Origin: a virus
Direction: 5' to 3' (one strand)
Virus record (IMG/VR): IMGVR_UViG_3300037549_000144
Location: 1-36,328 of that record
DNA length: 36,328 nucleotides
Numbering within the stretch: position 1 is the stretch's first letter; each line of letters starts with the position of its first letter. Positions 2,499-34,277 of the stretch are shown one piece after another. The notes under the pieces were generated by a model. It saw only the letters and a program-made list of their open reading frames with translations, was not told where the DNA came from and ran no database searches. Made by a program: the position numbers and the translations under genes.

Positions 2499-5400
2499 GC
2501 GGCAGCAACGACAGCGTGCGGATCAGCATCAACGCCGACGCCGCCGACTTCTCCGAGACGATGGTCTCGGCGATGACGGATGCGCAGAAGTTCAATGCGA
2601 TCCTGAAAAGCGTCAACAACGACCTCGCCAAAGCCGCCGCGATCTGGGACCAGGGCAGCGAGGCGATCACGAAATACGCCTCCGCGCTGTCGGGCAGCAG
2701 CAATGCCGCCAAGGCCGCGCAGACGTCGTTCGCCAGCTTGACGACGGCGGCGACATCGACTGAGGGCGGCTTCAAGAGCGCCGCCGACAGCGCGACGGTG
2801 TTCATCAAGGCGCTGAACCCGACGCCGCTGCAAGCGCTGCGCTCGCTGATGGGTGCGGAGATGCCCGCCGCGTTCCGCATGACGCAGAACGCGACGCTCG
2901 GCGTCGTCGAGGAAATGACCGGGCTGAACCGCAACTTCGCCTCGGCGGCGCTGAGTGCGGCGGCGTTCACGCGCGCGCTGAACCCGGCACCGGCGGCGGC
3001 GTTCCGCGCGGCGCTCAATGAGATCGCGGCGGGTAATCGCGTCGTCTCGACGACGATCGGCTCGGTGATTGCGGAACAGACCGGCCTTGGGCGTGCGTTC
3101 ACCAGCGCCGCAGAGAGCGCGCGCAGCTTCATGGCGGCGCTGAACCCGACACCGCTCGCCGCCTTCCGCGCCGCGATGAGCGAGCAAATTCCCGCCGGTT
3201 TGCGCACCACGCAAGTCACGATGGAACAGGCGATCGCGGCCTCGACCGGGCTGGGGGCGACATTCAAGTCGGCGGCTGAATCCGCTGAGATATTCAAGCG
3301 CGGGCTCGACCCGTCGCCGCTGATGCAGATGCGCGACCTGATGGGCGACGCGGTGCCTGCGGCGGTCACGCACACCACGACGACGATCAATGAACTGATC
3401 GACGGGATGACGCGTGAGGGACAGGCGACGAAATCCGCCGCTGACTCCGCGCAGGTCTTCGCCAGGGGATTGCGCGAGGTGATCGGTCCACTCGCGCAGA
3501 TGCGCGACCTGATGGGCGAGAGCCTGACGGGCAGCCTGCGGCAGACCGAGACAACGATCAACGAACTGGTTGGAGCACTCACTCGCGAAGGCCAGGCGAG
3601 CAAGAGCGCCGCTGAATCCGCGCAGGTCTTCGCCGCCGCGCTCGGGCAGGTGCAGACGCCCGCACAGCGGCTCCGCGCGATGATGGCAACCGAGGTGCCG
3701 GGCGCGTTCAAGCTGACGCAGCAGGCAACGCGCGAGGCGATCAACGACCTGACCGGCGTCAGCCGCGAGTTCAAATCCGCCGAGGAGTCGGCGCGCGCGT
3801 TCAATCAGGCGCTTGATCCGTCGCCGTTGCAGCGCACCAAGCAATTACTCGACGAGACCACGCACGGCGCACACGGCGCGAGCGGCGGCTTCTCGATGAT
3901 CACCCACGAAGTCATCGTGCTCGGGCACGAGGCGATGATGGGGAATTTCTCGCGCATCCCCGGCTCGCTGCTGGTGCTGACGGAATACTGCGGCAACTTC
4001 AGATCCAAGGTCATCGAACTCGCGGCGTCGATGACCTCGATGGGCTGGGCCGGCGTCGCGGCGATCGGCGCGGTCGCGGGGGCATTCGTCGCGCTGATAA
4101 TCCGCGCGCACGAGGCAACGGTCGCGGTGCGCGAGGCGATGAACGCCGCGACGATGGGCGGGCGCGATCCGAAAGAGGCGGCGGCGGCGGTCAAATCCGG
4201 GGCCGAGGGGATGAAAGAGATCGGCGTCATGGGTCACCATGCCGCCTACGAAGTCTCCGCCGCGATCGAGAGCCTGGGTGAAGTCGGCGAGGCTGAGAAA
4301 AAGCGGCTGCAAGCGCTCGGCACGCAATTCTTTCTTAACTGGGGCAGCGACGCGAAGAAGACGGCGCAAGAGATCAACCAGATTTTTGCGTCCGATTCAT
4401 CGCTGAAAAGCTATCTCGACCAGCAGCATCTCCTGTCAAGCAAAGCCGCCGACGCCTGGGCCGACACGACAAGCTCAGCGAAGCACTACGAGATCGGTAT
4501 CAAGGCGATCGAGGACCGGCTCGGCTCGATCGGGCCGAAGATCAAGCAAATGGTGGACGATGCGTCGTTCAACCGCGCGCAGTACATGGTGGGCGATGGC
4601 TCGCCTCTGATGCCGGTTGCCGGAACGGGCAACGTCACCGGCCCGCAGTCGGGGCTCGGTGACTTCGATCCCGGCAGCAAACGGCGCAGCGCGGCAACAG
4701 AAGAAGAGGACGCGGCGGTTCTCAAGCTGACCGCGCATAATCGCGAACTCAAGACGCTGACCGATGAACGCGACTCTGCGACCCGCGCACTGGCGCGCGC
4801 CGAGGCGGATCACGATGCGGCGGGCGCTGCGGCGGCGCGGCAGGCGATCGAAAACGGCAACGTGCTGATCGCGCAGTGGAAGGCGCAGGGCGACGCGTCG
4901 TGGGCGCAGAAGCAACAGGCGGCACTCGATCAGATACTCGTCAAGGTCGGCGCGACGGCGACCAGCGTCAGGGCTCGCGACGAGGCGCTGAACAGAGAGC
5001 GCATCAAGTTTTGGGAAGATGCCGCCAAGAACATCGCCAAGACGCCCGAACAGATTCAAATGGCCGAGGAAAAGGCCAATCAGGCGCGGCTCGCCTTGCA
5101 GGGCGAGGTTGTCGCGGGCAACGCGGCGGCAGCGCGCGCGGCGACGGCGGCGGCGCGCAAGAGCCTGGAGGAACGCCTCGCGGAACTCAGCACCGAGCAG
5201 GCGGCGAACCGCGACGACTACGCCAAAGTCGCGGCGCTGGAGAAGCAGAAGCTCGACCTGATCCGCGCCAGCGTCGGCGAGAAGTCCAAGCTGTATCAGG
5301 ACGAACTCAAGCGCCAGGAGATGATGGAGCGCGCCAACACGCTCGAAATCGCGAAGGTCAAAGAACAGGAACTCCAACAGAAGCGCAGCCAGGATCAGGC

Positions 5401-6418
5401 GGCGTTCCAGATCAAGAAGGATCTGGACGATGAGGCGGTCATCGAAAAGAAGATGACGCACGAGCAGGAACTTGCCGACCTGCGCGCGCTTGCCGCCAGC
5501 CAGCACGCGATCGAATTGCAGATGGCGAACGACGTGCTTGCCGGTCTCGACAAGCAGTCCAAAGCCTATGAGGAATATTACAACAAGATCCAGACGATGC
5601 AGGCGCAGTGGGCGGCGCAGGACGCCAAGCTGGTGCGCGACGTCCGGATGAAAGAGGAACAGGAGTTCAACAAGCTGGCGGCACCCTTCGAGAGCGCGAT
5701 CTCGGGCCAGGTCAGTGCGATGCTGCGCGGCACCGAGACGATCGGCCAGGGCGTGCAGAAGATGGCGGCGAACATCGTCACCGAATACGCGACGATGGCG
5801 GTCAAGACGATGATGCACTCAGCCGCGATGGCGGCATGGGATGTCGCCAAGCAACTCTGGTCGCAGACGACGCAGACGAGTGCTGTCGTCAGCGGGCAGA
5901 CGGCGCAAACGGCGGCGGTGGTCACGGGCGAGGCGGCGCGGCAGACGGCGAAGACGGCGGCGCATGTCGCGGGATCGGCGATGGAAGCGGCGAGCGGCAC
6001 CGCCTCGGTGATGAACGCCGCCTACAAGGCCGCCGCGAACACCTATGCCTCGGTCAGCGCGATTCCCTATGTCGGCTGGATTATGGCGCCGGTCGCCGCC
6101 GCCGGCGCGTTCGCCGCGGTCGCCGCCTACAACGTGATGACCTCGCTCGATGTCGGCGCCTGGAACCTGCCGCACGACATGCCGGCGAACCTGCACGCGG
6201 GCGAGATGGTGATCCCGCAGAACTTCGCCGAGGGCCTGCGCTCGGGTGGCGGCATCGGCGGCGGTCCGATGACGCAGAACATCAATTACTCGCCGACGAT
6301 TCACGGCGGCGGCGGCGGCGACATGCACGCGCTGATGCAAGGACAGGCTGCAGCGTTCAAAAGCTATATCTGGCACGCGACGCGCAACGGCTCGCTGGCG
6401 CTGCCGAAGGGGCGCTGA
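2495..6418 (+). CDS. tail tape measure protein
   Basis: 1307 residues, the longest gene here, starting at ATG 2495 within the stop region of the chaperone. It sets tail length and is threaded through the tube. The N-terminal third (residues ~93-450) is a series of seven ~55-residue repeats with the motif KSAAESAxxFxxAL. A hydrophobic, probably membrane-active segment lies at ~511-538 (AGVAAIGAVAGAFVALII). Long charged coiled coil covers ~700-1060, a second hydrophobic stretch ~1189-1215, and the C-terminus (HAGEMVIPQNFAEGLR) is typical of tape measure proteins. There is no obvious muralytic domain. At 1.5 angstrom per helical residue the full length would correspond to a tail near 190-200 nm (inference). 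Confidence 0.9.
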   Translation: MSGSNDSVRISINADAADFSETMVSAMTDAQKFNAILKSVNNDLAKAAAIWDQGSEAITKYASALSGSSNAAKAAQTSFASLTTAATSTEGGFKSAADSATVFIKALNPTPLQALRSLMGAEMPAAFRMTQNATLGVVEEMTGLNRNFASAALSAAAFTRALNPAPAAAFRAALNEIAAGNRVVSTTIGSVIAEQTGLGRAFTSAAESARSFMAALNPTPLAAFRAAMSEQIPAGLRTTQVTMEQAIAASTGLGATFKSAAESAEIFKRGLDPSPLMQMRDLMGDAVPAAVTHTTTTINELIDGMTREGQATKSAADSAQVFARGLREVIGPLAQMRDLMGESLTGSLRQTETTINELVGALTREGQASKSAAESAQVFAAALGQVQTPAQRLRAMMATEVPGAFKLTQQATREAINDLTGVSREFKSAEESARAFNQALDPSPLQRTKQLLDETTHGAHGASGGFSMITHEVIVLGHEAMMGNFSRIPGSLLVLTEYCGNFRSKVIELAASMTSMGWAGVAAIGAVAGAFVALIIRAHEATVAVREAMNAATMGGRDPKEAAAAVKSGAEGMKEIGVMGHHAAYEVSAAIESLGEVGEAEKKRLQALGTQFFLNWGSDAKKTAQEINQIFASDSSLKSYLDQQHLLSSKAADAWADTTSSAKHYEIGIKAIEDRLGSIGPKIKQMVDDASFNRAQYMVGDGSPLMPVAGTGNVTGPQSGLGDFDPGSKRRSAATEEEDAAVLKLTAHNRELKTLTDERDSATRALARAEADHDAAGAAAARQAIENGNVLIAQWKAQGDASWAQKQQAALDQILVKVGATATSVRARDEALNRERIKFWEDAAKNIAKTPEQIQMAEEKANQARLALQGEVVAGNAAAARAATAAARKSLEERLAELSTEQAANRDDYAKVAALEKQKLDLIRASVGEKSKLYQDELKRQEMMERANTLEIAKVKEQELQQKRSQDQAAFQIKKDLDDEAVIEKKMTHEQELADLRALAASQHAIELQMANDVLAGLDKQSKAYEEYYNKIQTMQAQWAAQDAKLVRDVRMKEEQEFNKLAAPFESAISGQVSAMLRGTETIGQGVQKMAANIVTEYATMAVKTMMHSAAMAAWDVAKQLWSQTTQTSAVVSGQTAQTAAVVTGEAARQTAKTAAHVAGSAMEAASGTASVMNAAYKAAANTYASVSAIPYVGWIMAPVAAAGAFAAVAAYNVMTSLDVGAWNLPHDMPANLHAGEMVIPQNFAEGLRSGGGIGGGPMTQNINYSPTIHGGGGGDMHALMQGQAAAFKSYIWHATRNGSLALPKGR
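2771..3868 (+). repeat. seven ~55-codon modules inside the tape measure gene
   Basis: Six full and one partial module of 54-57 residues each begin with (F/T/S)(K/A/T)SAAxSAxxF, followed by AL(N/D)P(T/S)P and a helix ending in TGL or TREG. Modules begin at residue 93 and the last begins near residue 426. The modules are degenerate at DNA level, so the duplication is old or has been diversified. Confidence 0.8.
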
Positions 6419-18961: not shown

Positions 18962-19921
18962 GTGGACGCCTCGCTCTTGCATGTCGTCACATGCGTCGCA
19001 AACCCGGTGCGGTGGGAGAGCCGTATCCGGCTGGCCAGGAACTTTATCACTCACATGCTCGACAGCGGCGTCGATCTGACCGTGGTCGAAACCGCCTATG
19101 GCGAACGCCCGTTTGAACTCGCTGACGTGCCGCACATTCATCATATCCCGACGCGCGCTCGCACGATGGCCTGGTCAAAGGAATCCGCGCTCAACGTCGG
19201 CATCCGGTCGCTGCCGCCAACGGCCCGTTACGTCGGGTGGCTGGACAGCGACATCGAGTTCAGAGACGCGAAGTGGGCGGAGAACACCGTCCACGCGCTC
19301 CAGCTGGCGCCCGTCGTGCAGCCGTGGAGCGAGGCGCTGGACCTCGGCCCGGACGGCGAAGTCATGACCGTGAAGGGAACGCAGGTGCAGACCTCGTTCG
19401 CCTGGGTGTGGCGCGAGCATGGCGACGTCACGTCATGGTGGAAGAAGCAGCAGAACGGCGAGCCCTATGCCTATCCGCACAGCGGCTACGCCTGGGCGGC
19501 GACGATGGACATGCTGAGCCGGATCGGGCTGCTGCTGGATTTCTCTGGCCTGGGGGCTGCGGATCATCAGATGTCTCTCGGCATGGTGGGCCTTGGTGCC
19601 AATGCGATCCACGGCCTGAGCACGCCGGCCTATGCCAACGCCGTCAAAGCATGGTGCGACCACGCTTTCCGTTTGATCGAGGGGCATGTAAACTATGTCC
19701 CGGGAAGGATCGAACACAGCTTCCACGGCCCCAAGGAGTTGCGCAAATACGTCGGGCGCTGGGACATCCTCAATAAGTGGAAATTTGATCCGCACACGGA
19801 CCTGCATCGGAATCGCTGGGGCATCCTCGAACTCAGCGGTAACAAGCCGGGCTTGATGCGCGACGTCGAACACTACTTCCGCAAGCGCGCGGAGGACGCG
19901 AACTATCTGGGCGCGCCATGA
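18962..19921 (+). CDS. glycosyltransferase, GT-A fold
   Basis: 319 residues from GTG 18962, chosen because AAAGGA sits ten bases upstream (18946-18951) and the preceding gene stops at 18930. The N-terminal strand LLHVVTCVANPVRWESRIRL resembles a nucleotide-sugar binding start. YVGWLDSDIEF carries the DSD metal motif (residues 95-97). The C-terminal part contains IEHSFHGPKELRKYVGRWDI and FDPHTDLHRN, a His-rich segment found in phage-encoded glycosyltransferases of this kind. Cytosolic, no membrane segment. Overlaps the next gene by ATGA. Confidence 0.75.
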   Translation: MDASLLHVVTCVANPVRWESRIRLARNFITHMLDSGVDLTVVETAYGERPFELADVPHIHHIPTRARTMAWSKESALNVGIRSLPPTARYVGWLDSDIEFRDAKWAENTVHALQLAPVVQPWSEALDLGPDGEVMTVKGTQVQTSFAWVWREHGDVTSWWKKQQNGEPYAYPHSGYAWAATMDMLSRIGLLLDFSGLGAADHQMSLGMVGLGANAIHGLSTPAYANAVKAWCDHAFRLIEGHVNYVPGRIEHSFHGPKELRKYVGRWDILNKWKFDPHTDLHRNRWGILELSGNKPGLMRDVEHYFRKRAEDANYLGAP

Positions 19922-20814
19922 CGTACAGCATCCTCACCGTCGCGCACGGCGTTGATCACGGCCTGCTGACGCTGCAAGCGCGTTCGCTGGCGCTCTACTG
20001 CCCGGCTGATCGGGTGCATGAGATCGTCGTCATCGAGAATTTCGACGCCGGACAAACGCTCGATTGGCGCAAGCCGCTGCTGCTCGAGTACGGCCGGCTG
20101 GCGAGCAAGGTGCGCTTTATTCCCGCCGCCGAGGTCGGCCCGATTCCGCCCGGGCACGGCGGCTGGTGGGTGCAGCAGATTCTCAAGATCACCGCCGCAC
20201 GCATAATCCGCACCGAGCGCTATCTCGTGCTGGATGCGAAGAACCATCTGACCAAGCCGCTCACCCTGGACTTCCTCGAGACGCCGGACGGCACGCCGAA
20301 ACTGAACGGCTACGGGTTTGAGAACCACAGCTTACGCGACGCATTGATCCGGGCGCTGGTCTACTTCGAGATTGAGCCCGAGCCGTTTGTGCGGCACTTC
20401 GCGCGCACCTCGACGCCCTATCTGATGATCACGCCGGTCTGCCTGGACCTGATCACTTATGTTGAGCGGCGCGAGGGCGTGTCGTTTGGCGAAGCCTTCC
20501 TGGGCAGACACCTGACTGAATTTTTTCTCTATGCGGGATTTTTGCAGGCGCAGGGGCGGCTGTTTACGACCTATTCGATGAGCCAGCCGTTCTGTCCGCA
20601 GATTTGGGGCTTTTCCAGTGGCCTGCATGGCGTCAACGAGGCGCTGACGAAGGCGCGTGACCCCAAGAGCGGGCCTTTCCTCGCGGTGCACCGGCTGGCG
20701 CTGGCCGAGATGCAGATGCCCGCACGCGCCGCGCTGGCGGATTTCTGGCAGAGTGCGGGACTATTTCCCACGTTGCAGGCGGGTATCGCCTTCACGCTGC
20801 ATCCGAACGGATGA
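19918..20814 (+). CDS. DUF6492-like putative glycosyltransferase
   Basis: 298 residues, start overlapping the previous stop by 4 bases. It begins YSILTVAHGVDHGLLTLQAR and has GWWVQQILKITAA (82-94), then YLVLDAKNH (102-110). These correspond to the DUF6492 pattern in which a helix ending in K is followed by an acidic metal-like motif. Here the motif is D-A-K rather than D-S-D, so metal binding may be altered. HLTEFFLYAGFL is also family-like. Probably works with the preceding enzyme. Activity not established. Confidence 0.65.
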   Translation: MTYSILTVAHGVDHGLLTLQARSLALYCPADRVHEIVVIENFDAGQTLDWRKPLLLEYGRLASKVRFIPAAEVGPIPPGHGGWWVQQILKITAARIIRTERYLVLDAKNHLTKPLTLDFLETPDGTPKLNGYGFENHSLRDALIRALVYFEIEPEPFVRHFARTSTPYLMITPVCLDLITYVERREGVSFGEAFLGRHLTEFFLYAGFLQAQGRLFTTYSMSQPFCPQIWGFSSGLHGVNEALTKARDPKSGPFLAVHRLALAEMQMPARAALADFWQSAGLFPTLQAGIAFTLHPNG

Positions 20815-23520: not shown

Positions 23521-23801
23521 GCTGATTTGCCTCTGTGCAGATCAGGGCCGTGATAGCCCACGTATGTCCAATCGAGTTCGCCCGCCTTCTCGGCCGGGAC
23601 GGATACGCCGTCCTTGTCGATCCAGCGCTGGATACCGGGACGCCACTGCATCTGTGCGAGCAACGGGAAGCCGTGGCGCGTGCCGGTGCTGATCAGGTGC
23701 CAGGCGATCGTGTTCATGTGCTCAGGCGGCGGCTGGAACAGCACGACGCCGACACCCCTGCGGAGCGCGCGAGCGCGCCCCGAGAGATCAAAGCGGCTCA
23801 C
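23517..23801 (-). CDS. hypothetical protein
   Basis: 94 residues from GTG 23801, overlapping the ParB-like gene stop by GTGA; an internal ATG (residue 29, MNTIAWHLI) is the alternative start. The C-terminal part (RPGIQRWIDKDGVSVPAEKA, LDWTYVGYHGPDLHRGK) resembles short phage proteins with Trp/Tyr-rich strands. Function unknown. Confidence 0.5.
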   Translation of the reverse strand: MSRFDLSGRARALRRGVGVVLFQPPPEHMNTIAWHLISTGTRHGFPLLAQMQWRPGIQRWIDKDGVSVPAEKAGELDWTYVGYHGPDLHRGKSA

Positions 23802-25477
23802 GCCGCGTCGTCCACGTCGTCAGGCTCCCAGGCCGAGGCGACGGCATCGGGCACGTCAGGGTCGTCGTTCATCGCCGCCTTGACGCTATCGGGCGCGTCA
23901 TCGACCTCGGCGAACATCGGATCGTCGCCGCTGCGCGGACCCTCAGCGCCGAACTCTACCGCGCGCCAGTCGGGCAGCTTGCCCACCATGGCCTTGCGCA
24001 GATCGCCCACGGTCTTCTGCGGCTTGATGCCATGCTCTTGCGCGATCTCGGCCAGCTTGTCGCCGCTGATGCCTTTCAGTATCTCGGGCGTGTCGGTGCG
24101 CGGCATCTCGACGGCGATCGCGCGCGCGATCCATTCCGCCCCGGGGCCGGACCCGCGCGCATCGTCAGGCGCATCGAAGCGAATGATCTGACCGATGATC
24201 TGACCGGCGATCTCGCACAGTGCACCGTCATCCAGCGCGCGCGTCCTGCCCTCGCTGTCGATCAGCAGCTTCGCCAGTTCACCCCAGGGCGAGCCGGCGA
24301 TCGGCCCGGCGCTGACGTTGCGCAGGGTAAAGCACAGCAGCAGCAGTTCCAGCATCGCGCCGGGGTTCGCCTCACCCTTGCTGTAGGCGAGCAGATAGTC
24401 GCGCGTCGCCTCGGTCTTCATCGCCGCGAGTTGCTTCTGCACGACCTTGGAGATCGGGTCGCGCGCCTTGATCGGCTCAATGATCGTCGCGCCGCTGACG
24501 TGCCGCTTGTCGCTCTCGCGGGTGTTGTCGTGCGGCGCGCAGACGTCGTACTGGACCTGCCCGATGTAGTAGCCCTGGGTGATGACGCTCGCGAACACCC
24601 GCCTCGGGTCCAGTTTGCGCCAGCGCTTGGGCACGTCGTCGCCGGTCGAATACCAGCCGCTCGGGCGCTTGCCCTCTTTGATGATCTCGATGCGGTCTTT
24701 CGATGCTGCCGCCTGCTTGTTGAGCGCGATCTCCTGCAACGCCAGGAACGCGTCGATGTCGGTCGTCGAGAACCGGTCGCCATCGGTCGGCTCAGCAAAC
24801 AGGTCTTCGTCCCAGGCCAGCAGTGACGTATCGAAGATCGCCCGGCTCTGCGGGATGCGGCGCAGAGTGCAGAGTTCGCTCAGCGTGTACCAGTCGATGT
24901 ACTCGCCCTTCGCGCTCTTGCGCTTGGCCTTGTCGAGCGCTTTGATCTGCACCTCGTGCGGGGCCAGCGCGATCACCCGCAGATAGTTCGCCTGCGGCAG
25001 ATCGCCGGTCCCGATCGCGTCGATCAGAGCCGGGGCCATCGATCCCAGGTGCTCCATGCGGCGTGCAAGCGCGAGCGGAATGCCGAGCGCGGCGGCGGCG
25101 GTTTCCAGATTGTAGCAGCCATCGGCCATCAGCTCGGCGACCGCGCGCCATTGATCGACGGGGTGCATGGCCGCGCGCACCATGTTCTCGGCAGCGCTGA
25201 CAGCGACGGGCGAGCGCTCGCCCGTGCCGTCCGTGGTGTGCTCGATCTCGACGGCCTCGATCGTGTCCCAGCCGAGATCACGCGCCGCCGCGAGACGCCG
25301 GTGACCCGCGCGCAAGTCCCAATGCCCGCTCTCAAACGGCGACGGCTCAATCAGAACGGGTTGAAGCTGGCCGAGCGTTTGCAGCGACGCGCGCAGCGCC
25401 GCGTCCTGTTCAGCCGTGGTCTTGATCTTGCGGCTGTTGCCGGGATCATCGTGGATGGATGTCAGTTGAATACGCAT
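23798..25477 (-). CDS. ParB/RepB/Spo0J-like protein
   Basis: 559 residues from ATG 25477, set by the leader GAGGACACCAC two bases upstream. The N-terminal ParB domain includes LGQLQPVLIEPSPFESGHWD and AGHRRLAAARDLGW (57-70), the ParB box where GHRR replaces the common GERR. A helix-turn-helix follows (NLETAAAALGIPLALARRME, ~123-142). The remaining ~400 residues are unlike chromosomal ParB and include NAAAS-type helices and an acidic C-terminus. ParB-like proteins use CTP and bind DNA; phage versions act in partition, nuclease or regulatory roles. No ParA gene in view, so plain partition is unlikely. Confidence 0.8.
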   Translation of the reverse strand: MRIQLTSIHDDPGNSRKIKTTAEQDAALRASLQTLGQLQPVLIEPSPFESGHWDLRAGHRRLAAARDLGWDTIEAVEIEHTTDGTGERSPVAVSAAENMVRAAMHPVDQWRAVAELMADGCYNLETAAAALGIPLALARRMEHLGSMAPALIDAIGTGDLPQANYLRVIALAPHEVQIKALDKAKRKSAKGEYIDWYTLSELCTLRRIPQSRAIFDTSLLAWDEDLFAEPTDGDRFSTTDIDAFLALQEIALNKQAAASKDRIEIIKEGKRPSGWYSTGDDVPKRWRKLDPRRVFASVITQGYYIGQVQYDVCAPHDNTRESDKRHVSGATIIEPIKARDPISKVVQKQLAAMKTEATRDYLLAYSKGEANPGAMLELLLLCFTLRNVSAGPIAGSPWGELAKLLIDSEGRTRALDDGALCEIAGQIIGQIIRFDAPDDARGSGPGAEWIARAIAVEMPRTDTPEILKGISGDKLAEIAQEHGIKPQKTVGDLRKAMVGKLPDWRAVEFGAEGPRSGDDPMFAEVDDAPDSVKAAMNDDPDVPDAVASAWEPDDVDDAA

Positions 25478-25653: not shown

Positions 25654-26010
25654 CTACGCCGCCTCAGTCACTTGCTTGGGCAGAGCGTCGGCGAAATGCG
25701 CGCGCACCCGCTGGTCGAGCGCGCGCCCTTCCTCGGTCGGCGCGAGCATCGCGTTGCGCCGGTCCTCTTTGCCGTGCGTGCGTTCAAGCAAGCCGCGATT
25801 GACGAGTTTCTCAGCGACGCGGCTGACATGCGGCGACGAGACGCCGAGCAGGGCCGCGACAGTGCCGATCGTCATCGGCGTGTCGTGCGCGATCAGCAGT
25901 GCGATGACTTGCAGGTCGCGCATGTGCAGTTGCCCGGCGATCTCATCGCGCGCCAGCAGAGCGCTGAACGCGGCCAGATGCGCATGGGCGGGAAGCTGCG
26001 CGTGCGACAT
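25654..26010 (-). CDS. MarR-family winged-helix regulator
   Basis: 118 residues from ATG 26010, which overlaps the upstream stop (TGATG) and has GGGAGG upstream. The winged helix is clear: LQVIALLIAHDTPMTIGTVA, then ALLGVSSPHVSRVAEKLVNR as recognition helix, and GLLERTHGKEDRRNAML with the DxR wing motif. APTEEGRALDQRVR follows. It is shorter than typical MarR proteins (~140-150) mainly at the N-terminus. It may regulate this operon or host genes; MarR regulators are unusual between a recombinase and a ParB-like gene. Confidence 0.8.
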   Translation of the reverse strand: MSHAQLPAHAHLAAFSALLARDEIAGQLHMRDLQVIALLIAHDTPMTIGTVAALLGVSSPHVSRVAEKLVNRGLLERTHGKEDRRNAMLAPTEEGRALDQRVRAHFADALPKQVTEAA

Positions 26011-27893
26011 CAGCGGCCTCCCGCACGCGGCAGGGACGCGTGCTTGGCGGAGAACGCGGCATCGGCGCGATCAAACAGCGCGCGCTTGTCCTTACGCAGC
26101 CGCGCCATCAAGGTGCGCACCGCGTTCGATCCGACCAGCGCGTCGAATTCCTCGCGGCTGTCCATCGTCGCAAGGTCCGCGATGCGCGCGTTGACCCAAC
26201 GCTCATCGGCGTCGGTCACCGGCTCGGCCTCAGGCTCGGCCTTCGCTGTCTCGGGCTGCTTGGGCGCGCCGAGATCGACGATCGCTTTGGCCTTGATGAT
26301 CGCGCCGAGCCAGTCGGGTTGCGCGACGCCGAGCCGGCCTGCGGTTTCCGCCAGCGCGCGGATGCAGAGCACCCTTTGCGCCATCGGGCAGGCTTCCAGT
26401 TGCGTCCGCTGCACGCGCGCCCAATCGTGGAAATGCTCAGCCGGGACATCGACGAGCGCGGCCTTGAGCAGCTTGACGAACCCCGCCCACGACACCTTGC
26501 CCCGGTCGGCCGGGGGTTCGATCGCGCTCAGCACGAACTCGGGCAAGGCGCTGTCTTCGGGCTCGGCCTCGTCGAGCGTGCGCAGCAGTTCCGCCGCGTC
26601 GGGCATCACCCGCGCCTCTTCGATGCTGTCGCCGTTGTACTCGATCAGCAGCGCACGCGCCGCGCTGTCAGCCTTGAGCCACAGCCCGACAAAGGCGTGC
26701 GCGAATTGCTTGGCGTTCTCGAAGCCCTCACCGACGACCTCGCCGTGCTCATCGATCAGCACCGCGTCATAGTCGGGCTCACCCCAGTCGGGCCGGTCTT
26801 CGTTGACGGGCACATCGCCATAGGTCGCCGCGGCCTTGCGCAGTTCTTCGGGCGCGGTCGGGTTCGCGGGTGTCGCAGGCGGCTTGTCAACCGCAGCCGA
26901 TTTATCGGCCTTTTTGTCAACCGCAGGCTTCGCGGGCGCGGCTTTATCGGCCTTTTTGTCAACCGCATCGGGCTTTTCGGCAAAGCGTGCGAGTGCGGCG
27001 TTGAACGCGGCGTCGATCTTGAGTCGCATATCCTCGGGCGCCTCGGCGCGGGTGGACTGCACGCTCGGCATATCGCCGATCTCCTGCACGTCGCGCAGGC
27101 TCGGCGCTGCCTTGAGTGCCGCGAACAGCAGCTTCGACCACTCCCACGCGTTGCCCTCACCGATCAGCTTGTTGCGCGTGCCGATGAACCATGTGTCGTC
27201 CCAGCCGTCGGCGTCCTTCGCGCGATCGGGATCGGCGCGAAACTGCGCGCGCTGCGGACGCTCAGCGGGTGTCGACCACGACTTCGCCGCCTCGGTCGCG
27301 GCATCCTCGGCGTCGATCTCGCGCGTGCCGATGCCGCGCAGCACGTCGGGGAAGGCATCGTGCAGCGCGAAGTGCCGCGCCCGCCACATCATCATCCGCT
27401 TGGGGTACTTGCCGTGCGTCGCCTGCCCGAACAGGCCCGCTATCTTCGCGTCCTTCTGCGAGAAGCGCCCGGTCTTGGCTGATGTGCCGCGCCGCTTGGC
27501 GATGCAGACGGCGGTGAATCCGTCGCTGCCTTCGTCGCCCTCGAAGAACTCCTGGATGTCATCGACCTTGCCCGACGAGTAGCACAGCCCGGGCACCGCA
27601 TCGCCCCACACGCTCGGGCGCCCGTTGATGACCGCGATCGACTGCACGGACTGCACCGGCGGCAGGCCAAGCTCGGCACCGAACATCACGGCGAGCACGA
27701 TGTCGTCGGGCTTGTTGCGATATGACGACGGCACCAGTTGCGACTTCGCCGCGTGCATCGCGAAATCGATGATCTCGCCGATCGAGTTCAACCGGATCGA
27801 CATGACCGGTGTGACCGCGCGGCTTTCCTGGCGCACCGCGACGGCGCGGGGTTCCTCGGCGATCGACGCCTGGATCGGGGCGATCTCGTTCAT
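26010..27893 (-). CDS. RecT-like single-strand annealing protein with long C-terminal extension
   Basis: 627 residues from ATG 27893, with GGAG nine bases upstream. Residues ~35-200 carry IIDFAMHAAKSQLVPSSYRN, then LAVMFGAELGLPPVQSVQSI, AVINGRPSVWGDAVPGL, MMMWRARHFALHDAFPDVLR. This is the pattern of phage RecT-type recombinases that anneal single strands at replication forks. Typical members have about 270-350 residues; here a Lys/Ala/Pro linker (~308-338, VDKKADK repeated) joins a further ~290 residues of unknown, mostly helical, acidic sequence. No exonuclease partner gene is recognisable nearby. Confidence 0.75.
   Translation of the reverse strand: MNEIAPIQASIAEEPRAVAVRQESRAVTPVMSIRLNSIGEIIDFAMHAAKSQLVPSSYRNKPDDIVLAVMFGAELGLPPVQSVQSIAVINGRPSVWGDAVPGLCYSSGKVDDIQEFFEGDEGSDGFTAVCIAKRRGTSAKTGRFSQKDAKIAGLFGQATHGKYPKRMMMWRARHFALHDAFPDVLRGIGTREIDAEDAATEAAKSWSTPAERPQRAQFRADPDRAKDADGWDDTWFIGTRNKLIGEGNAWEWSKLLFAALKAAPSLRDVQEIGDMPSVQSTRAEAPEDMRLKIDAAFNAALARFAEKPDAVDKKADKAAPAKPAVDKKADKSAAVDKPPATPANPTAPEELRKAAATYGDVPVNEDRPDWGEPDYDAVLIDEHGEVVGEGFENAKQFAHAFVGLWLKADSAARALLIEYNGDSIEEARVMPDAAELLRTLDEAEPEDSALPEFVLSAIEPPADRGKVSWAGFVKLLKAALVDVPAEHFHDWARVQRTQLEACPMAQRVLCIRALAETAGRLGVAQPDWLGAIIKAKAIVDLGAPKQPETAKAEPEAEPVTDADERWVNARIADLATMDSREEFDALVGSNAVRTLMARLRKDKRALFDRADAAFSAKHASLPRAGGR
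26884..26967 (-). repeat. 25-bp direct repeat in the RecT-like linker
   Basis: Two identical 25-base copies (26901-26925 and 26943-26967) plus a 12-base partial copy at 26884-26895, spaced 42 bases, encode VDKKADK twice. The high DNA identity indicates a recent in-frame duplication. Confidence 0.8.
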
Positions 27894-27894
27894 C

Positions 27895-28677
27895 TCAGCG
27901 CACTCCCATCTTGTTGGTCGGAATCCATTTGACGCCGGGTATGACCGCGGTCGGACGCCCGGCCGCATCGCGCGCCTTCATCGCGGCTTTGATCGCGTCG
28001 TCGTCCACCATCAGGTAGTGGCGGGGCACTTCGTTGACGTCGGCCTCGTAGCCCCAGGTCGTGCGCATCGACATCGTTGCGCCGAATGTGCCGCGTGCGC
28101 GGGTCAGACCCGCTGCCTTGCCGCTCGCGACGGCCTCGGCGGCATCGGCCTGCTTGGCGGCTTCGGCGGCGCGATCGAGCAGCGTGTCAGCGGTCTTGCC
28201 CTTGTCGAGTGCCTTTGCCGCTGCGGCCGCAGCGCGGTCCGCTTCATCCTGCAGCCGCTTTGCCTCGGCTTCTGCCTTGAGCCGCGCCGCCGCCAGCTTG
28301 CGCGCGCCGTAGTCGTCCATGATCGCCTGGACCGCCGCCATCGGCAGCGTCAGCGGGCGATCGAACGATTTGAACCACGCATCGACGGTGCGCCCGCCCA
28401 ACAGGAATGGCTCTTTGTGCTCTTTGCGCCGGTCTTCTCCGGTGCGGCGCAGCGCGAGCGCCATGCGCATGTTCTCGCCGACATCGCCGAGCGTGTCGTC
28501 GTCGTTGATGACGGGGATCGCCGTGACGGTCGCTTGCAGCGCGGCGACGAGCGTGTCGCGCCGTTCGATCAGTTGCGCCAGCGCATAGTCGAGATAGGCG
28601 TCGATTTCTGCGCTCGATAGTGGTGCGGGCGGTAGCGGCGCGTTGGAGCCGTGCGTGACGGCAGTCATCTCGTTCAT
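27895..28677 (-). CDS. conserved recombination-operon protein, coiled coil
   Basis: 260 residues from ATG 28677, with leader GAGGACACCAC four bases beyond (28682-28692) and an ATGA overlap with the upstream gene. A central Ala/Glu/Lys-rich coiled coil (LAAARLKAEAEAKRLQDEAD) is flanked by an N-terminal helical part and a C-terminal domain. The latter contains MRTTWGYEADVNEVPRHYLM and DDDAIKAAMKARD, ending VIPGVKWIPTNKM, a motif common to phage proteins encoded beside recT or exonuclease genes. Specific function unknown; position suggests a recombination accessory. Confidence 0.7.
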   Translation of the reverse strand: MNEMTAVTHGSNAPLPPAPLSSAEIDAYLDYALAQLIERRDTLVAALQATVTAIPVINDDDTLGDVGENMRMALALRRTGEDRRKEHKEPFLLGGRTVDAWFKSFDRPLTLPMAAVQAIMDDYGARKLAAARLKAEAEAKRLQDEADRAAAAAAKALDKGKTADTLLDRAAEAAKQADAAEAVASGKAAGLTRARGTFGATMSMRTTWGYEADVNEVPRHYLMVDDDAIKAAMKARDAAGRPTAVIPGVKWIPTNKMGVR

Positions 28678-29208: not shown

Positions 29209-29850
29209 TTAGGCGGCGTGTCTCATCGGTACGACACGGTTCATGCGACGCTGCACAAACTCGATCGGTGCCGCGGCGACGATCTTCTGATCGAACTGCG
29301 GCGGGGCGTGATAGCAGATCAATGTCGCCTTGCCATCGGGCTGCACGGTGATCTGGCGCAGCAGCACCCGACCGTCAGCCATTTCGACAACGCACTCCTG
29401 ACCGTGCATCAATGCAAGGTCGAACTCGCTGCGATCCAGCGCGCGGTGCAGCACCACGTCGCCGTTTCGGTAGGCTGGATACAGATCATCGCCACAGACG
29501 ACATGCGCTACCATGTCGGCAGGATCGGGCAATGTGACAGTCTGGGCTTGTTTTTCCGTGCGGATCATTGCCTCGATTTTTCCCTCGGCTCCAATCCGGC
29601 CGACGATACGGACGCGCGGTATCGAATGCAATTGTTCACCGTACAGCAACGTGCCTGCCGGTAATTTGAAGATCCTGGCGTACATGCGTGCAACATCGGC
29701 ACTGACCTGACGCCGACCGTTCTCGTGGTGCGAATAGGTCGTCTGATTCAGTCCGTGTGCGCGTGCAAAACCGATTGCGCTGGGCCAGCCGGCCTCGATC
29801 CGCGCTCTCCGTAACCGGTTGGCGACATCGTTCTGGTGAGCCTGCATCAT
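29209..29850 (-). CDS. phage repressor, XRE HTH plus degenerate S24 (LexA-like) domain
   Basis: 213 residues from ATG 29850 or the adjacent ATG 29847. The N-terminal XRE helix-turn-helix (LRRARIEAGWPSAIGFARAH, then GLNQTTYSHHENGRRQVSAD, ~9-64) binds DNA. The C-terminal S24-like domain has CGDDLYPAYRNGDVVL, where the catalytic Ser of GDSM is replaced by Asp122. It also has GRVLLRQI, where the general-base Lys appears as Arg165. So the fold is kept for dimerisation but RecA-stimulated self-cleavage is unlikely. It diverges from the Cro-like gene over a 57-base region holding a perfect-length operator. Confidence 0.85.
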   Translation of the reverse strand: MMQAHQNDVANRLRRARIEAGWPSAIGFARAHGLNQTTYSHHENGRRQVSADVARMYARIFKLPAGTLLYGEQLHSIPRVRIVGRIGAEGKIEAMIRTEKQAQTVTLPDPADMVAHVVCGDDLYPAYRNGDVVLHRALDRSEFDLALMHGQECVVEMADGRVLLRQITVQPDGKATLICYHAPPQFDQKIVAAAPIEFVQRRMNRVVPMRHAA

Positions 29851-31726: not shown

Positions 31727-31816
31727 GAGTCGCCCATGCAAGGGGGCTATGGCTATGATTCTATACAATTTCGTGACGCGCGGATTTAACGCCACGTTCA
31801 ACCGGGGGTGGCGGTC

Positions 31817-32452
31817 ATGAGCGATTATACCATCGCGGCTATCCCGACGCTCTATCGCGGACGCCAATACCGCTCGCGGCTAGAGGCGCGCTGGGCGGCG
31901 TTCTTCGATCTGCTGGGCTGGCGACATGAGTACGAGCCGTTCGACCTGGGTGTATGGTCGCCGGACTTTGCGCTGCGCGCCGAAGAGGAGTGTGCGGAGG
32001 CCGGGCCCTTAGAGCCTGGGTTAATCGAGATCAAGCCGATTGACGGGTGGCATCAGCCGACCGTGCAGAAAATGGCGCAAGCCGCGAAGCGGCGAGCGTT
32101 CGAGGGGCCTTTGTTTCTGTTCGGCACCGCGCCTCAGTTGATGCCGGAAAACGGCTTTGTGCGGTTGGGCTGGCAAGGCAATATGTGGTGCGACTACGAC
32201 GAGAAGACGAAAAGGCACAAGCTGGACAGCGTGCGTCGCTGGTGGACGCCTGCATATCTGCATTGGCTGCAAATGTATGACCGGCCATCGTTTGTGCCGG
32301 ACATATTGCACACGTCGCCTCACCAGCAAATACAGGGCGGCTTCTTTTCCGACCTTACATTTTTGGATGCTAAAACCTACGCCGCACACACAATGAGCTT
32401 GTGGGCGCGCGCGACGAACGCCGTGCAATACCAGCACGGGGGCCGGGCATGA
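31817..32452 (+). CDS. PD-(D/E)XK nuclease-like protein
   Basis: 211 residues from ATG 31817, with GGGGGTGG upstream (GTG 31808 is possible). It reads YRGRQYRSRLEARWAAFFDL, then GWRHEYEPFDLGVWSPDFAL and LIEIKPIDGW. Glu23, Asp50 in SPDF and Glu71-x-Lys73 form a PD-(D/E)XK active-site pattern. The same layout occurs in many small phage proteins encoded next to replication genes. Probable DNA endonuclease or processing enzyme; substrate unknown. Overlaps the initiator gene by ATGA. Confidence 0.65.
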   Translation: MSDYTIAAIPTLYRGRQYRSRLEARWAAFFDLLGWRHEYEPFDLGVWSPDFALRAEEECAEAGPLEPGLIEIKPIDGWHQPTVQKMAQAAKRRAFEGPLFLFGTAPQLMPENGFVRLGWQGNMWCDYDEKTKRHKLDSVRRWWTPAYLHWLQMYDRPSFVPDILHTSPHQQIQGGFFSDLTFLDAKTYAAHTMSLWARATNAVQYQHGGRA

Positions 32453-33384
32453 GCGTCCTCAACATCATCGCGGCGATGCGCTCAAACCGGAAATCTCTGG
32501 CCGAGCGACTGGTGTGGCAGTGCCTTGAGAATCACGCCAACGGCGCACGCTGCTGGTCGATCAGCCGAGCCGAGATCGCGCGCGAACTGAATATCTCGCC
32601 CGATACGGTCAACAACGCCATCCAGGCGCTTGAAGCTGACGGCATCATCCGCGTCGAACTGAACCCGCCCCACAAGGCGAAATATCACATGCTGTTCGAC
32701 GTGTCGCCGAAGCCCCGGTCGCTGTTCGAGGACGCGGTTGATGAGTCGGAATTTCCGACTCATCCGACGAGAACAGAGTCGGAATTTCAGACTCAACGGG
32801 AATCCGTCGCCGAGTCGGAATTTCCGACCGTGAAAGCGACGGCTGAGTCGGAATTTCCGACCGACTCTATAGAAGAATCCACCAGTAAGGAAGAATCCAC
32901 CAGGAAGGTAGTAAGGGAGGGTAGCGCGCGCGCTGACGCGCACGACCCCCCTGTCGTCGGCTCCAATGTTTTCAAGTTTGAAACGGGATTGACGAAGGCG
33001 GGCGAGCGCGAGCGCATCGTCACGGCCTGGAATGCCATCGCCGAGGCGGGCGATCTGCCCGTGGTGATGAAGATGACGAAGCGCCGGGAGCGGGCGATCG
33101 ATCTGCGCATCGCCGAGGTCGGCTTCGACGCGATGTGCGAGGCAGTGCGCAAGGTCGCGGCGTCGTCGTTCTGTCACGGCCAGAACGAGCGGGGCTGGCG
33201 TGCTGACTTCGACTTCCTGCTGCAACCCACGAAGCTGATCGCGACGCTGGAAGGGCGCTACGACAACCGCACACCCAAGGCTCAGCCGAAGCCCGGGGGT
33301 GTCGCGTCGATGCGCGCGAAATACGGGTTCCGTGGGCTGCAACCCACCATCGAACCAGAGCCAGAAGGGAGGGTCGCGCTATGA
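32449..33384 (+). CDS. O-like replication initiator with N-terminal winged helix
   Basis: 311 residues from ATG 32449. Residues ~17-72 (ERLVWQCLENHANGARCWSI, then SRAEIARELNISPDTVNNAI, QALEADGIIRVEL) form a winged helix of the HTH_36 type used by phage initiators. Residues 99-138 hold four ESEF(P/Q)T repeats that are the translation of four DNA iterons, followed by EESTSKEESTRK from a tandem repeat. The C-terminal part (MKMTKRRERAIDLRIAEVGF, GWRADFDFLLQPTKLI) resembles the C-terminal half of phage replication proteins that recruit the helicase. Organisation mirrors lambda O. Confidence 0.8.
   Translation: MSVLNIIAAMRSNRKSLAERLVWQCLENHANGARCWSISRAEIARELNISPDTVNNAIQALEADGIIRVELNPPHKAKYHMLFDVSPKPRSLFEDAVDESEFPTHPTRTESEFQTQRESVAESEFPTVKATAESEFPTDSIEESTSKEESTRKVVREGSARADAHDPPVVGSNVFKFETGLTKAGERERIVTAWNAIAEAGDLPVVMKMTKRRERAIDLRIAEVGFDAMCEAVRKVAASSFCHGQNERGWRADFDFLLQPTKLIATLEGRYDNRTPKAQPKPGGVASMRAKYGFRGLQPTIEPEPEGRVAL
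32743..32863 (+). repeat. four 19-bp iterons: predicted replication origin
   Basis: Copies at 32743-32761, 32776-32794, 32812-32830 and 32845-32863. Each is GAGTCGGAA-T-TTCCGACTC or close; copy 1 is a perfect dyad, copy 2 has one change and copies 3 and 4 end CCG. Start-to-start spacings are 33, 36 and 33 bases, roughly three helical turns. Located inside the initiator gene, as in lambda. Confidence 0.85.
32864..32925 (+). repeat. A-rich flank with an 18-bp tandem repeat beside the iterons
   Basis: Two adjacent 18-base copies (32873-32890 and 32891-32908; AAGAATCCACCAG then TAAGG or GAAGG) lie directly after the last iteron in a purine-rich, relatively A+T-rich stretch. This fits the DNA unwinding element of a lambdoid origin. 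Confidence 0.7.
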
Positions 33385-34277
33385 CGACCAAAGCGCACCT
33401 CGGGGCAGTCACCGCGTGGCTGTCGAGCGTCGCAAATGGCACACGCCCCGTCGCTGACATCGAAGACCGCATCAAGGACATGGCGGTAATGCTCGCGGAA
33501 TCGCTGCCGAACGGCGCGATGTTCTGCACGCAAAGCGCGATCTACGTCTCGATGGAAGCCGAGGGCGGATACTTTCCTAGCGCCAAACGAGCCAAGGAAC
33601 TGCTGGAAACGTGGTGGGCGGGGCACACGCCGCCGACCCCGCTGCTGCCGTCCGCAGCGAACGACGCGGGTCTGAACACGACTGAGCAACTGATGGCGAA
33701 ACACTGGCTCGACCTGCACGCGTCAGGCGCGAAAGACGGCGAACTGGCGGTCGCGCTGTCCGTGGTGCGTCGCTACGCGCACAAGGCGTTCCTCTGGCTC
33801 GCCAAGACGCACCTGTTCGCCGAGCAGATCGCCAAGCGCCACGACTGGCTGCGCGACGAGACGCCGGCGACAGCCGATGAACGCGCAGCGATGCCGCCGC
33901 TCGGCCCGGTCCTGGCCGGGATCGGCATGGTGCTGCACGCGCCACCGCCCTACGCAAAGCCTGATCCGGCGCACGCGTCACCAGAGTCCAAGCCGCCGCC
34001 GCTAAAGTCCACACCCGGAGGGAACTCGCCCGTTGCGGGCGCAAAACCCCCGGAAATCAGAGCAAAACCGCCGGAGGGAACTCGCCCGCTCGGCGCGCTC
34101 AAGCCTGACGATCTGGCGAAAATCCGCGAGGCGAACCCCGCGATCATCGCGGCGCGACACACCCAGTCGATCATCGCCGAGGAACGCGCGCGCGAGCACG
34201 CGGCGGCGTCGCTGTTCACCGACGACGCCGATCTGATCGACGAGCCGCTGGAACCCCTCACCTGGCCGGATGAATGA
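33381..34277 (+). CDS. replication-region protein, unknown (possible helicase-loader position)
   Basis: 298 residues, overlapping the initiator gene by ATGA. The N-terminal ~80 residues (AVTAWLSSVANGTRPVADIE, DRIKDMAVMLAESLPNGAMF, CTQSAIYVSMEAEGGYFPSA) are compact and helical. The C-terminal third is Pro/Lys-rich with a duplicated segment encoded by 34015-34032 and 34071-34088 (PEGTRP/ PGGNSP region). The position is that of lambda P (helicase loader), but no AAA motif or P-like signature is visible. Confidence 0.6.
   Translation: MTTKAHLGAVTAWLSSVANGTRPVADIEDRIKDMAVMLAESLPNGAMFCTQSAIYVSMEAEGGYFPSAKRAKELLETWWAGHTPPTPLLPSAANDAGLNTTEQLMAKHWLDLHASGAKDGELAVALSVVRRYAHKAFLWLAKTHLFAEQIAKRHDWLRDETPATADERAAMPPLGPVLAGIGMVLHAPPPYAKPDPAHASPESKPPPLKSTPGGNSPVAGAKPPEIRAKPPEGTRPLGALKPDDLAKIREANPAIIAARHTQSIIAEERAREHAAASLFTDDADLIDEPLEPLTWPDE
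34015..34088 (+). repeat. 18-bp direct repeat in the C-terminal linker
   Basis: CCGGAGGGAACTCGCCCG occurs at 34015-34032 and 34071-34088, in different reading frames of the same gene. A small duplication in a low-complexity linker. Confidence 0.75.

Follow-up and report, generated by a model that had tools for sequence, protein, structure and literature searches.

The window analysed here, a stretch of 36,328 bases from an IMG/VR virus record with 65% GC overall, may be a fragment of a larger genome. Its left side is occupied by tail genes, the nearest relatives of which are found in phages of Brevundimonas, Acinetobacter, Pseudomonas and Rhodobacter, and a DUF6492 protein (1e-11) is encoded amid the late genes at 19918-20814. 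On the right side ParB-like and RecT-like genes lie on the minus strand and are followed by the gene of a CI-like repressor (29209-29850, minus). The ParB-like (ParB_N) protein (23798-25477, minus; NF010406 at 2.9e-49, below the cut-off of that family) resembles a plasmid partitioning protein, and together with the CI-like repressor of the same phage it could serve plasmid-prophage maintenance. The RecT-like annealing protein (26010-27968, minus; phrog_561, 1e-29) is unusually long, with 652 aa. The gene at 31808-32452, immediately upstream of the O-like gene, matches phrog_21138, a family without assigned function, and the N-terminal YRSRLEARWAAFF...PDFAL...EIKP pattern of its product is nuclease-like (PD-(D/E)XK type) by eye only.

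The O-like replication initiator gene is located at 32449-33384 (plus strand, ATG at 32449) and encodes 311 aa. Its product matches phrog_345, "replication initiation O-like", with an E-value of 5.4e-22 (aa 21-276 aligned to positions 49-294 of 297 in the profile), the same profile giving 6.7e-88 for P22 gp18 and 5e-17 for lambda O. The AF2 model (mean pLDDT 75) comprises two ordered domains, about aa 1-85 and 183-270, joined by a disordered linker of about aa 88-178. The N-terminal winged-helix domain (32449-32703, aa 1-85), modelled for the most part at a pLDDT of about 90 or higher, matches HTH_24 (6e-8, the best) and HTH_36 (3e-5) and is proposed to be the reader of the iterons described below. 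Phage_rep_O (PF04492), scoring 5.7e-36 in lambda O and 6.9e-38 in P22 gp18, is not among the 25 Pfam matches listed for the window protein, nor is RepA_N (PF06970) among its listed matches, the control locus L441 giving 3.5e-20; BLASTP detected no similarity between the window initiator and lambda O. A structure search with the model returned only generic winged helices among the listed matches and none with E below 0.001. The C-terminal domain (32995-33276, about aa 183-276) is of the P22 gp18, or replisome-organizer, type, with the motif FxxGxNDRGWxAxFDWxxxP conserved in alignment, and 527 viral stretches encode a relative. With the phrog_345 match, the winged-helix N-domain, the disordered linker and the C-domain, the description of the gene as O-like in the initial annotation holds, and its product is classified as an O-like initiator. 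The following gene (33381-34277, plus), the start of which overlaps the end of the O gene, encodes a 298-aa protein, a candidate P-like partner (helicase loader). It has no Pfam, PHROG or NCBIfam family match and no match to a known helicase loader, and its AF2 model is poor. A homologue follows the O gene also in loci L265 and L262; the pair travels together.

Inside the initiator gene four iterons are found on the plus strand, at 32743-32761 (GAGTCGGAATTTCCGACTC), 32776-32794 (GAGTCGGAATTTCAGACTC), 32812-32830 (GAGTCGGAATTTCCGACCG) and 32845-32863 (GAGTCGGAATTTCCGACCG). Repeat and mismatch searches bear out the number and the start-to-start spacing of 33/36/33, about three helical turns, that had been annotated, while the term "near-palindromic 19-bp" suits copy 1 (18 of 19 positions) and less so copies 2 to 4 (16, 14 and 14). 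Common to all four is a 15-bp hyphenated palindrome, GTCGGAA-T-TTCCGAC, with one mismatch in copy 2; the 19-bp dyad is completed by outer bases in copies 1 and 2 only. At up to three mismatches the window contains eight matches (the four sites on both strands) and no more copies at the repressor region or elsewhere, and dinucleotide shuffles of the whole window gave a mean of 0.01 matches, none of 100 reaching eight. As had been annotated, the iterons encode ESEFPT repeats and, together with the adjoining tandem repeat, fall within the O-like gene (32743-32908); in the protein the iterons correspond to aa 99-138 and the A-rich repeat to aa 142-153, both wholly within the linker. The proposed GC-skew check was graded uninformative here, the skew over this fragment being flat, with no turning point at the site. 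The iteron sequence of the window was not found in any close O relative. The exact 19-mer GAGTCGGAATTTCCGACTC occurs in three related viral contigs (L006:2297-2315, L007:2042-2060 and L008:5242-5260), between late genes and not in O genes; it is possibly a transcription terminator there, because TCCAGTTTTTAAA comes next.

Behind the iterons lies an A-rich flank repeat (32872-32908, plus), the proposed unwinding element, with two 18-bp units, GAAGAATCCACCAGTAAG and GAAGAATCCACCAGGAAG (2.1 copies of the form GAAGAATCCACCAG(T/G)AAG). The GC content of 32865-32915 is 43% versus 65% overall, and just 0.08% of 50-bp windows fall below it. The annotation of an A-rich tandem repeat is therefore right relative to this genome, but the flank, with about 57% A+T against about 72% in lambda, is not an A/T tract like that of lambda.

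A profile search with the N-domain yielded few close relatives, a scan of genome contigs gave no useful relative, and an N-domain search of plasmids gave no match. The N-domain of the window is about 50% identical to those of L003, L004 and L005, with 55% for L003 and 45% for L094. Like the window, L003 (IMGVR 3300046516_000571) and L094 have palindromic iterons in the linker, mostly in 33-bp steps (66/33/33/45/33 and 33/45/33, respectively), and the same CCACCAGTAAG-type flank, but in other reading frames; their iterons differ from those of the window (TTGACCC...GGGTCAA; TTGACCCATCAAAATGATGGGTCAA type / TTGACCCCCCAAAATGGGGGGTCAA type), and so does their C-domain, which belongs to phrog_270 in L003. 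A full-length relative, L265 (29%), carries palindromic TGAACCTAGTTCA iterons and the homologue of the next gene of the window. In two further sets, 80 loci collected by the C-domain and 80 by the N-domain, linker arrays are common in this class, mostly with a spacing of 17-24 bp. The three-turn spacing may mark a subgroup, since it returns in L003 and L094 and, in part, in L265 and L420. Among 41 genes, iteron similarity rose with N-domain identity (Spearman 0.65; 0 of 2000 permutations in a Mantel test), and with partial correlations of 0.61 for the N-domain and 0.13 for the C-terminal part the iteron sequence follows the former and hardly the latter. This co-variation supports the N-domain as iteron reader, since such a reader predicts that pattern; part of the correlation could be linkage, as the two segments are neighbours.

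The flank behaves in another way. The longest DNA stretch common to the O genes of the window and L003 is the 21-nt AAGAATCCACCAGTAAGGAAG (window 32873-32893), and outside the flank they have no common stretch of more than 11 nt. Its reading frame is 1 in the window and 0 in L003, and L094 has two copies, in frames 0 and 2. A core, CC[AG][CT]CA, first came to notice in about twelve genes (20 genes together have 21 copies versus 2.9 expected); it was chosen after these 20 genes had been seen and was then put to the test on newly fetched loci. Among 31 deduplicated O-like genes retrieved through the N-domain, the 75 bp that follow the last iteron contain 34 core copies, 12-fold more than the 2.8 predicted from the remaining sequence of these genes; the excess does not stand for 31 fully independent events because the loci in the set are related. 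The copies are divided among frames 0, 1 and 2 as 11, 19 and 4, are often 10-12 bp apart, and in five genes (L406, L408, L412, L416 and L418) occupy more than one frame. Because the core is enriched in all three frames and the 21-mer stands in different frames, the flank is a DNA element in its own right, shared where the iterons are not. As bait for relatives the flank motif alone was rejected, giving mostly chance matches, though L094 emerged in this way.

Taken together, 32743-32908 is very probably a theta-type replication origin embedded in the initiator gene of the phage. What the sequence shows is the array, the selection on its DNA, the domain plan, iterons that vary with the N-domain, and a flank conserved as DNA; binding, dimers, melting and helicase recruitment are inferred. 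A dimer of the O-like protein would bind each palindromic iteron through the N-terminal winged helix, and with four dimers in place at approximately the same helical phase the DNA would be bent and wrapped and come under strain. The adjoining 3' A-rich repeats, which contain CCACCA, would then open, and the replicative helicase would be recruited by the C-domain, alone or together with the 298-aa protein encoded downstream. The 33-36-bp spacing suggests a nucleoprotein particle looser than the O-some of lambda.

It could be argued that the repeats are selected as peptide, with ESEFPT serving a function in the linker and the repetition in the DNA arising as a by-product; the spacings are indeed all divisible by three, and the peptide repeats well. 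However, when the same peptides (ESEFPT, ESEFQT, ESEFPT, ESEFPT) were recoded in 100,000 trials with the codon usage of the window, not one synonymous version was equally palindromic (the best reached 56 of 76 positions versus 62 observed), and only 16 had copies equally alike. Codons are fixed where they are free to vary: TTT makes up 20% of Phe codons in the phage, yet is present in all four iteron copies, and the 14-17-bp spacers have diverged and are not alike, in contrast to the near-identical iterons. Moreover, the linker is disordered, and the palindromes of the relatives encode quite different peptides (LTHQND, EPSSPS, HPRT). Since no recoding is as palindromic and no shuffle reproduces the array, selection acts on the iteron DNA, and the fixed codons beside differing spacers likewise mean that DNA rather than protein is conserved; the peptide explanation is the least probable of those weighed here and hardly credible.

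Two other explanations accept the sites as DNA signals. The palindromes might be operators or parS sites of another phage protein, such as the ParB-like or the CI-like one, lying in the O gene by chance. The ParB_N protein encoded in the window speaks for it, as parS sites are short palindromes, and in some mycobacterial phages a parS locus of direct repeats is placed just downstream of repA (PMC7157519). Nevertheless, dozens of O-like genes have arrays at the same place with a sequence that follows the N-domain, the flank element is linked to them, and no further copy exists in the window, the repressor region included, so this explanation is improbable. Slightly more improbable still is that the iterons are true O-binding sites used mainly for autoregulation of the gene, while replication starts at another place. 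It is common for initiators to repress their own genes, and no skew signal is seen at the site, but the sites are about 300 bp inside the gene, no plus-strand promoter was found there, and a conserved AT-richer repeat comes next, as in known in-gene origins.

An origin within the initiator gene is also the arrangement of several known replicons. The ori of lambda lies inside gene O (PMC5043065), the same in-gene layout is on record for phages P22 and L (PMC8022706), and Pseudomonas phage MD8 has repeats in an O-like gene (PMC8508860). Lambda (J02459, iterons 39034-39118) shares with the window four inverted-repeat iterons in mid-gene between N- and C-domains and a purine-rich, AT-richer tract after them, in the same strand and order. 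The initial annotation held that the locus copies the lambda design, and this is true of the layout, with the array between the domains and the A-rich tract 3' of it, but not of the spacing, because the 18-19-bp iterons of lambda are set more tightly, at 20/24/23 (about two turns). The iteron sequence is unrelated to that of lambda, as annotated, the N-domain of lambda O is PF04492, and the next gene of the window matches no known P protein. Gene 18 of P22 belongs to the same PHROG (phrog_345) over most of the protein, with a related C-domain and an origin annotated within the gene; it differs in the N-domain (PF04492) and in its next gene, which encodes a DnaB-type helicase and not a 298-aa protein. 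A similar plan exists in the RepA_N plasmid pSK41, which has a winged-helix NTD, an origin-encoded central linker, a CTD and four in-gene Rep boxes; in this Rep the linker is dispensable in the protein, and in a pPR9-type hybrid initiator a pfam13730 N-domain has been swapped in with the origin region as a block (PMC5703833). RepA_N plasmids differ in having the RepA_N domain, which is not among the matches listed for the window protein, and Gram-positive hosts. As the layout has already been recorded for lambda, P22, L, MD8 and pSK41, that of the window is not unusual. The claim of a lambda-type origin in the initiator gene is supported by phrog_345, the array in the linker, the DNA-level selection and the co-variation, with an N-domain that is not Phage_rep_O, and the locus appears to be a further clear example of an in-gene origin, outside the Phage_rep_O family. 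The in-gene design would thereby be extended to a phage whose N-domain is not that of lambda and whose iterons are three turns apart, and the evolutionary picture would be one in which N-domain and iterons change together while flank and C-domain are separate modules.

In plasmids, Rep proteins recognise repeated 13-mers of the unwinding region on a single strand and in a sequence-specific manner (PMC4081077); the O proteins of lambdoid phages attach to AT-rich single-stranded DNA (PMC7466680). The flank may, by analogy, serve to capture a strand. Rather more tentative, and somewhat short of an even chance, is the proposal that the CCAYCA/CCACCA element is a shared ssDNA recognition site for the initiator or helicase complex, a phage counterpart of the plasmid 13-mers and not just easy-melting DNA. 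No description of a frame-independent CCAYCA flank element was found in the open-access literature, which is weak evidence of novelty. Present in dozens of genes, the element offers a lead on how the opened strand is captured by these initiators, which for lambda-type origins is still a matter of debate.

A possible G+C-rich hairpin of doubtful function (32914-32952, plus; dG -14.5 kcal/mol as ssDNA; z -4.3 and -1.8 under two shuffling schemes) is located 3' of the flank. Strong hairpins directly 3' of the A-rich tract are present also in lambda (L251:858-882, 10-bp stem) and P22 (L252:1148-1169, CCCCCTT...AAGGGGG), and the relatives L399, L404, L405, L406, L408 and L416 have one at that place. 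As a general third origin element the hairpin was rejected: over 31 loci p was 0.008 versus downstream sequence, but the element is not claimed because there was no difference from the N-domain control (p = 0.23).

Several other arrays were noticed on the way. In L441:5674-5738, within a minus-strand RepA_N gene (4939-6108), GAAGTCGGAAATTCCGACC iterons at 22-23-bp spacing are almost the same as the iteron sequence of the window, though the initiator is unrelated; this likeness may reflect convergence or a shared half-site preference. At L420:887-1113 an O-like gene whose N-domain is of the HTH_36 family bears a long series of GTGTCGGAATTCG(A/C)TACAC palindromes, and this gene has the GTCGGAATT core in common with the window. 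No Pfam match was obtained for the L423 and L477 genes and no PHROG match for that of L423. These two and L515 have repeated GGGTCGGAATTCCGACCC palindromes in the linker, which encode (G)RNSDP repeats, and the three genes possibly form another in-gene origin family.
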